Shown here: positions 3,072 through 4,260 of the stretch, one piece after another
How the letters are laid out: each line of letters begins with the position of its first letter
Position numbering within the stretch: position 1 is the first letter of the stretch
Assembly: GCF_002214585.1 (NCBI RefSeq)
Contig: NZ_CP014862.1
Coordinates: 1,426,001-1,490,000 of the forward strand
Direction of reading: 5' to 3'
DNA: 64,000 bases
From: Thermococcus profundus
GTDB taxonomy: Archaea; Methanobacteriota_B; Thermococci; Thermococcales; Thermococcaceae
Notes under the pieces: model-generated
What the model saw: the letters and a program-made list of their open reading frames with translations, nothing else
Database searches by the model: none
Told to the model about the DNA's origin: nothing
Program-made: the position numbers and the translations under genes

Positions 3072-3145
3072 GAAATCACCAGTGGGAATACGTCAAAGGA
3101 GTATTTTAGGGTTAGGATGGGAAAATACCTTACAGAAAACCTTAA

Positions 3146-3180
3146 GTATCGGTACCGATACTTGGTATCGGGGGCGATAC
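3146..3180. promoter_or_regulatory. two tandem GTATCG-N4-CGATAC palindromes (putative operator)
   Basis: Two copies of GTATCG-N4-CGATAC sit at 3146-3161 (spacer GTAC, extending to a perfect 20-bp palindrome at 3144-3163) and 3165-3180 (spacer GGGG). Their centres are 19 bp apart, roughly two helical turns. The second copy ends 3 bases before the ATPase start codon at 3184, and the first overlaps a possible TATA element (CTTAAGTAT, 3141-3149). This placement suits a repressor site. The binding protein is unknown; the C-terminal winged helix of the ATPase itself is one candidate. Confidence 0.6.
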
Positions 3181-3183
3181 TTA

Positions 3184-4260
3184 ATGCTGTTTGATCCAAG
3201 GCCGAAAGAGAGGCGGGAGGAAATCTTTGATAGGGAGAAGGAACTGGAGAAAATACTCAACGGAATGAATGAGTATCCGATAAGCCTCATCATTGGAATC
3301 AGACGTGTGGGGAAAAGTTCCCTGTTAAAAGTTGCCCTGAACGAGTATTCTGGTGTTGGAATCTACATAGACACCCGTCGCCTCTATTCCTCCGGTAGCG
3401 GCAGCATAAGCTCAGCCACGCTCGTTGACGAGATAACTAGGATACTCCTCGGGAAGGGCAGGGTTGGTTTCCTTAGGGGCATCAAGGTTGAGGGGGTAAG
3501 CTTTGCCGGTCTCCACTTAAAACCCCGCGAATCAAGCTGGATTGACGTTCTGGACGGGCTTGAGCAGCTTGGGAGAAAAACTGGAGAGAAAGTGGTTATC
3601 GCCTTTGATGAGGCCCAGTACCTCCGCTTTTTTGGCTCTAGAGGGGGTAAAGACTTCCTCGCTGGAGTGGCTTATGCATACGATTCGCTTCCAAACGTTA
3701 GCTTTATATTCACGGGTTCCGAGGTGGGGCTCCTCCACGACTTCGTTGGAATCGACGACTATTCCAGCCCCCTCTACGGCAGAATATCAGAGGAAGTTGA
3801 GATAAAACCGTTCTCCAGGGAGCTCTCAGAGGAGTTCCTGAGGAGGGGATTCGAGGAGGTTGGACTTAAAGTCCCTGAAGAAGAGATAATACTGGCAGTA
3901 GACAGCCTCGATGGTATCCCAGGATGGCTTGTGGAATTCGGCTTCAATTACTGGAAGAAGGGGAGCTTCAAGGCGGCTATGGAAGCGACCATGAATAGGG
4001 CAAAGGCAATGATAAAGGAGGAACTCTTTGAGCTGGAGAAGCGCTCTCCCCGCTACGCTTTGATTCTAAAGGCAATCTCAATTGGGCTTTCAAGGTGGTC
4101 TCAGATAAAAGACTACGTGGAAGCTAAAGGCGGTCCCGTGACCAATGCGCGCCTCAACAGCCTTCTCGTGAACCTGGAGAAAATGGGCTGGATAAAGAAG
4201 GAGAAAGGCCGCTACCTGATGGTAGACCCCGTTGTGGAAAAAGTGGTTAGAGAGGACTGA
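3184..4260 (+). CDS. archaeal AAA ATPase (ATPase_2 family) with C-terminal winged helix
   Basis: A 358-residue STAND/AAA-like ATPase of the ATPase_2 family that is multiplied in Thermococcales genomes. Walker A is GIRRVGKSSLLK (about residues 36-47), Walker B is VVIAFDEAQYL (about residues 138-148), and FIFTGSEVG resembles the sensor segment. The last 85 residues form a winged-helix-like domain (RWSQIKDYVEAKG and LEKMGWIKKEKGRYLMVDP). The function of the family is not established; links to mobile elements and toxin-antitoxin genes are suspected. The frame is open from 3034, but ATG 3184 follows the operator-like palindromes and a weak ribosome site (GGGGGCGAT). It ends one base before the argS stop on the other strand. 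Confidence 0.88.
   Translation: MLFDPRPKERREEIFDREKELEKILNGMNEYPISLIIGIRRVGKSSLLKVALNEYSGVGIYIDTRRLYSSGSGSISSATLVDEITRILLGKGRVGFLRGIKVEGVSFAGLHLKPRESSWIDVLDGLEQLGRKTGEKVVIAFDEAQYLRFFGSRGGKDFLAGVAYAYDSLPNVSFIFTGSEVGLLHDFVGIDDYSSPLYGRISEEVEIKPFSRELSEEFLRRGFEEVGLKVPEEEIILAVDSLDGIPGWLVEFGFNYWKKGSFKAAMEATMNRAKAMIKEELFELEKRSPRYALILKAISIGLSRWSQIKDYVEAKGGPVTNARLNSLLVNLEKMGWIKKEKGRYLMVDPVVEKVVRED

Follow-up and report, generated by a model that had tools for sequence, protein, structure and literature searches.

Locus organization and the paired palindromes

The window, i.e., the whole stretch of 64,000 nucleotides of Thermococcus profundus DNA analysed here, carries on its forward strand an ATPase_2 gene (PF01637) with a C-terminal winged helix (PF21100) at 3184-4260, coding for 358 amino acids and without an operon partner. 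Both Pfam profiles exceed their curated cut-offs (PF01637: 83.7 bits vs 33.2; PF21100: 51 bits vs 27), and the Walker A (GxxxxGKSS), Walker B (DEAQ) and sensor (TGSE) motifs are intact and conserved across the alignment. The winged-helix domain occupies residues 285-344 (4036-4215, +), the stretch covered by the Pfam MCM_C match, and the AlphaFold2 model (mean pLDDT 90) places the recognition helix at residues 321-333 (4144-4182, +), starting with residue 321, an asparagine that co-variation marks as the specificity position. PADLOC returned only weak partial matches to the candidate families PDC-S27 and PDC-S01. Relatives of the ATPase were not found in the viral and phage collections searched, and the plasmid collection yielded one weak match only (25% identity, within a 2.1 Mb record); on these grounds we rejected a viral, phage or plasmid origin as well as an iteron-type replication initiator. 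Within the genus, the locus order is aRF1, DHDPS, the array with its ATPase, and argS. A RelE/ParE-like toxin gene (PF05016) beside a DUF5646 gene (1639-2127, −), likely a toxin-antitoxin pair, is present in some orthologous loci and missing from others.

Immediately upstream of the ATPase gene, positions 3145-3181 (+) read AGTATCG-GTAC-CGATACT-T-GGTATCG-GGGG-CGATACT, a layout of 7-N4-7, one base, and 7-N4-7. The two palindromes that the initial annotation had described before the ATPase start were recovered as the cores GTATCGGTACCGATAC (3146-3161, +) and GTATCGGGGGCGATAC (3165-3180, +), with centres 19 bp apart and the ATG at 3184. Both dyads are one base longer than these cores, giving two putative operator sites of 18 bp at 3145-3162 and 3164-3181 (+), divided by the single base 3163. 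Site 1 (AGTATCG-GTAC-CGATACT) is a perfect palindrome over 20 bp (3144-3163), its position and geometry being shared with orthologues and paralogues, and site 2 (GGTATCG-GGGG-CGATACT) matches at six of seven pairs, the outermost being G-T. Tandem-array scoring gave 26/28 at 3145, and the runner-up within the 64-kb window reached 18.

The palindromes had also been placed between the TATA box and the start codon; they do precede the ATG, but the first half-site shares bases with the TATA-like box (3140-3147). This box belongs to a candidate BRE/TATA-like element, GAAAA-CCTTAAGT (3135-3147, +), recognized by inspection and by comparison with aligned relatives that have a clearer TATA (CTTTATAAG, CCTTATAAC) in this register. 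A probable Shine-Dalgarno sequence, GGGGGCGAT (3170-3178, +), lies inside site 2, judging from its spacing to the ATG and from relatives in which this position reads GGAGG or GGTGG. In Thermococcaceae, the site 2 spacer is nearly always GGGG, GAGG or GTGG and sits about 8 bases 5' of the start codon, consistent with a Shine-Dalgarno sequence embedded in the operator; this may account for the lower symmetry of site 2 compared with site 1.

Distribution of the palindromes

Pattern searches, on which our claim of exclusivity within this genome (2.04 Mb) is based, recovered no exact match besides the two window palindromes. Imperfect matches comprised one site with a single mismatch and 42 sites with two; together with the exact pair this makes 45, versus 111 for the reversed control. 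Since imperfect sites are rarer than the control, the genome holds no scattered regulon, and we rejected that candidate for lack of enrichment. Across 94 genomes of the family, we found 75 exact matches versus 19 for the reversed pattern, distributed over 46 genomes and usually occurring as the 19-bp pair. With a single exception (G036:C1:1262332), these matches lie in front of this ATPase, in front of one of its broken copies, or at the locus that it has vacated. Random occurrence, which the initial annotation had considered, is thus clearly not what the genome-wide search shows: the motif is non-random and tied to the ATPase_2 gene. Sister genera carry the same array with an ATPase 51-56% identical, at other loci. 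In one genome (G063, L050:5964-6036), a row of four operator palindromes with a 19-bp period stands 5' of a group A2 ATPase.

The ATPase group itself is represented by 0 to 19 copies per genome. Frameshifted or internally deleted copies are common (L259, L261, L275, L286, L295, L312, L313, L068, L020), showing that the ATPase family gains and loses genes rapidly.

Private half-sites and their co-variation with the recognition helix

We took 60 further paralogue regions for operator comparison. Paralogues are 41-60% identical and have, in the interval from TATA to start codon, the 7-N4-7 / 1 bp / 7-N4-7 array; nearly all of the 60 regions have it in the same place and register, with a half-site that differs by group (AGTATCG, AGTAAYG/GGTAAYG, ACTTAYG, ACTTGCA/ACTTGTG, ACTTACC, and a shorter CACCAGT-T-ACTGGTG). 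The operator layout is therefore a property of the whole ATPase family, extending beyond the single window gene. The second ATPase copy of the same genome has an operator of the short type (CACCAGT-A-ACTGGTG) and a helix starting with LDDKNF. As the short operator of this group consists of the inner dyad alone, the inner pair may represent the core contact.

The half-site follows the start of the recognition helix: TNA is paired with AGTATCG, PNS/PKS with GTAAYG or GTTCC, PEP/PDP with ACTTAYG, NDA with ACTTACC, NDS with ACTTGCA, DDK with ACTGGTG, and SKS with GTTCT. At the level of single positions, asparagine or lysine at residue 321 goes with G at half-site base 2 (69:0) and aspartate or glutamate with C (62:0), i.e., 131 genes with no exceptions; one gene has serine at residue 321, paired with C. 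The association holds after deduplication at 70% identity (Fisher p = 2e-9), and an unbiased scan of 358 positions in 37 deduplicated genes ranked residue 321 as the top predictor of base 2 (95% leave-one-out, 0.97 bits). Contacts of D/E with C and of N/K/R with G make chemical sense as direct base reading.

We rejected simple shared ancestry as the explanation of this co-variation because the ATPase domain groups operator-sharing genes no closer and because the two traits repeatedly change together on the tree. Specifically, the ATPase-domain distance between A1 and A2 equals that between A1 and B (0.47), whereas operator distance is 0.08 for A1-A2 vs 0.31 for A1-B, and recognition-helix distance 0.26 vs 0.54. 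A partial Mantel test of operator against recognition-helix distance, given ATPase-domain distance, was significant (r = 0.36, p = 0.0005). On a tree built from the ATPase domain only, residue 321 and base 2 each change about 8 times, and the independent pairs of changes on well-supported branches are concordant in 5 of 5 cases; with five pairs the sign test gives p = 0.06, so that the phylogenetic test alone is suggestive, not conclusive. Overall, there are strong grounds to infer that the ATPase contacts its operator through its own winged helix.

Relatives beyond Thermococcales and orphan arrays

A GTDB scan recovered ATPase relatives in Desulfurococcales, Pyrodictiaceae, Sulfolobales, Thermoplasmata, Hadesarchaea and Bathyarchaeota, and in Thermotogota and Caldisericota MAGs, with host labels being uncertain for short MAG contigs. 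Among the upstream regions from outside Thermococcales, 25 of 36 had an array score of at least 0.7, versus 0.9% of dinucleotide shuffles, with array periods of 18-20 bp; no clear array was visible in the members that diverge most (e.g., L222, L228, L247). The same pairings of helix and half-site recur across phyla, namely TNA with AGTATC in Thermococcus and Desulfurococcales, DDK with ACTGGTG in Thermococcus and Pyrodictiaceae, and SKS with GTTCT in Thermotogales and crenarchaea. The ATPase and operator of a contig labelled Methanoculleus (L196) are nearly the same as those of one labelled Thermotogales (L195), the former probably being a mis-binned metagenome contig.

Orphan arrays without a matching ATPase occur at conserved places (e.g., G038 and G040 for group C, G000 for group B). 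The group C orphan array, GGTTCTG-GGGG-CGTAAGT-A-ACTTACG-GGGG-CATAAGT, is near-invariant in 13 Thermococcus species while its surrounding sequence is unalignable (at about position 1501 in L262, L263, L269, L271-L274, L276, L278-L280, L282 and L284); all 13 copies lie 3' of the same gene, a place that the ATPase occupies in other species. Group B operators without an ATPase share a junction (G000:C1:1957689, in L298 and L316; L291-L293, L296, L297, L301, L303, L304, L308), and the genome of the window itself has one leftover group B operator and no group B ATPase. Moreover, a matching dyad is also found at the stop codon in 8 of 86 genes (L103, L122, L123, L132, L134, L137, L138, L141), and direct repeats flank the gene in some. 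In four genomes (G027, G066, G067 and G068; L063, L053, L054 and L055), the GGGG and GTAC sites of the leftover group A array run in the opposite order with respect to the genes next to them, a pattern resembling an inversion of the array. The persistence of some operators after loss of the ATPase and the conservation of the group C orphans above that of their flanks go beyond simple autoregulation. Together, the orphan arrays, stop-codon dyads and reversed arrays point tentatively to recombination at the arrays or to a second function.

A model of autorepression and its alternatives

With the array, its position, exclusivity, spread and co-variation all demonstrated computationally, we propose that the palindromes are very probably the ATPase gene's own operator, to which the ATPase would bind and thereby repress its own promoter with a private specificity. 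The array spans from the TATA-like box to just 5' of the start codon, placing specific sites over the gene's own core promoter with few or none elsewhere. ATPase dimers would occupy the four half-sites, which alternate in orientation, by means of their C-terminal winged helices, with residue 321 as the first of the recognition helix. Once bound, they would cover TATA, start site and Shine-Dalgarno, excluding TBP/TFB and the polymerase and blocking transcription, which would amount to negative autoregulation; repression as such is inferred from the position of the array. The gene would constitute a self-contained negative feedback unit. ATP state or a ligand would presumably shift oligomerization, as in ORC and STAND proteins, which have the nearest folds after the ATPase family itself, and so relieve repression; the nature of the inducer and any part played by ATP are guesses. 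Half-site and recognition helix have diverged jointly among paralogues and distant relatives while the layout was kept, which would keep paralogues from cross-regulation. Self-repression through the C-terminal winged helix, raised as a possibility in the initial annotation, therefore finds support at the level of sequence in the tie between motif and gene, the private half-sites of each paralogue group and the residue co-variation.

Other explanations for the array need to be weighed against autorepression. A separate conserved transcription factor might bind the array, the ATPase gene being merely its target; arrays that outlast their matching ATPase (G038, G040, G000), with nearly invariant group C orphans, would be expected from such a factor. 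We nevertheless consider it very unlikely, since the half-site varies with the ATPase group and tracks the ATPase's own recognition helix, with residue 321 ranked first, and since the factor would need matching to every paralogue in every phylum, while the syntenic locus has no linked regulator gene. It is also highly improbable that the arrays are primarily recombination or attachment sites of a mobile cassette formed by the ATPase and serve as operators only secondarily. A 3' array is missing from most genes, no linked recombinase was seen, the viral, phage and plasmid collections hold no relatives beyond the one weak match, and the array keeps a fixed position with respect to TATA and start codon, as suits a promoter element; these points outweigh the stop-codon dyads (8 of 86 genes) and occasional direct repeats, the single array retained at vacated loci, and the copy number of 0 to 19 per genome with many copies broken.

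Paired arms that covary in all groups, together with a site 2 spacer (GGGG, GAGG or GTGG) that suits a Shine-Dalgarno sequence, are compatible with hairpins in a 5' leader RNA that control translation, the Shine-Dalgarno being in the loop of site 2. This we regard as extremely unlikely, given that site 1 overlaps the TATA-like box and hence lies upstream of the expected transcription start, that a stem of 6-7 bp would be weak at growth temperature, and that hairpins leave the co-variation with a DNA-binding helix unexplained. An Rfam search gave no match, and a known RNA element was rejected on that basis.

Extending autorepression to the whole family, we tentatively raise the possibility, doubtful at present, that these ATPases are self-contained switches across archaea and some thermophilic bacteria. 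Each gene would have a private operator over its start, in some cases with another at the stop, and its product would read them with its own winged helix by a simple amino-acid-to-base code. The arrays would then double as sites of gene loss and gain, and orphan arrays would keep a function of their own.

Relationship to known systems

Archaeal Orc1/Cdc6 proteins, which likewise combine an AAA+ ATPase with a winged helix, are the best fold matches after the ATPase's own family (e.g., 1W5T, 2QBY), and in both cases the winged helix would engage repeated DNA sites, which are origin sites there and predicted targets here. However, identity to the window ATPase is only about 14-19%, no Orc/Cdc6 profile is among its Pfam matches, and its putative sites, located in its own promoter instead of an origin, vary by paralogue; we therefore rejected an Orc1/Cdc6 initiator identity, the resemblance being at the fold level only. 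The fold matches also include CED-4; STAND NTPases, CED-4-like ATPases and MalT-type regulators would share with the window ATPase the coupling of an ATP switch to an effector domain. MalT-type ATPase-HTH regulators activate other genes, whereas for the window ATPase the sole site found is its own promoter. Winged-helix proteins that regulate themselves have precedents, such as Stf76 of pSSVx, which binds two sites in its own promoter (PMC4027180). Stf76, however, is a 76-aa protein of a single plasmid-virus (PMC4027180), in contrast to an ATPase family that spans phyla with diversified putative operators. A whole ATPase family with diversified private operators appears undescribed: we found no description of the operators or of the recognition rule in the open-access full-text literature (subscription journals not covered), nor a function for ATPase_2.

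ATPase_2 proteins abound in archaea, a single genome having as many as 19 copies of this group, and two of their structures have been solved. A private operator per gene would provide the first concrete activity proposed for ATPase_2, namely sequence-specific self-regulation. With the rule linking residue 321 and base 2, targets can be predicted from sequence; it may also offer naturally orthogonal, probably heat-stable repressor-operator pairs, and it serves as a signature to find and group family members in archaea and bacteria.

The two structures, PABY2304 of Pyrococcus abyssi (PDB 2QEN) and SSO1545 of Sulfolobus (PDB 2FNA), are the nearest solved ones; both are Walker-type ATPases of the same family and domain layout as the window ATPase, and the records consulted attach no DNA target or function to either structure. 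The product of one group C gene in our set (L115) equals the 2QEN protein except for one residue, and this gene has an array of its own, ACTTATGCCCCCGTAAGTCACTTATGGTGGCGTAAGT, which reads ACTTATG-CCCC-CGTAAGT-C-ACTTATG-GTGG-CGTAAGT.
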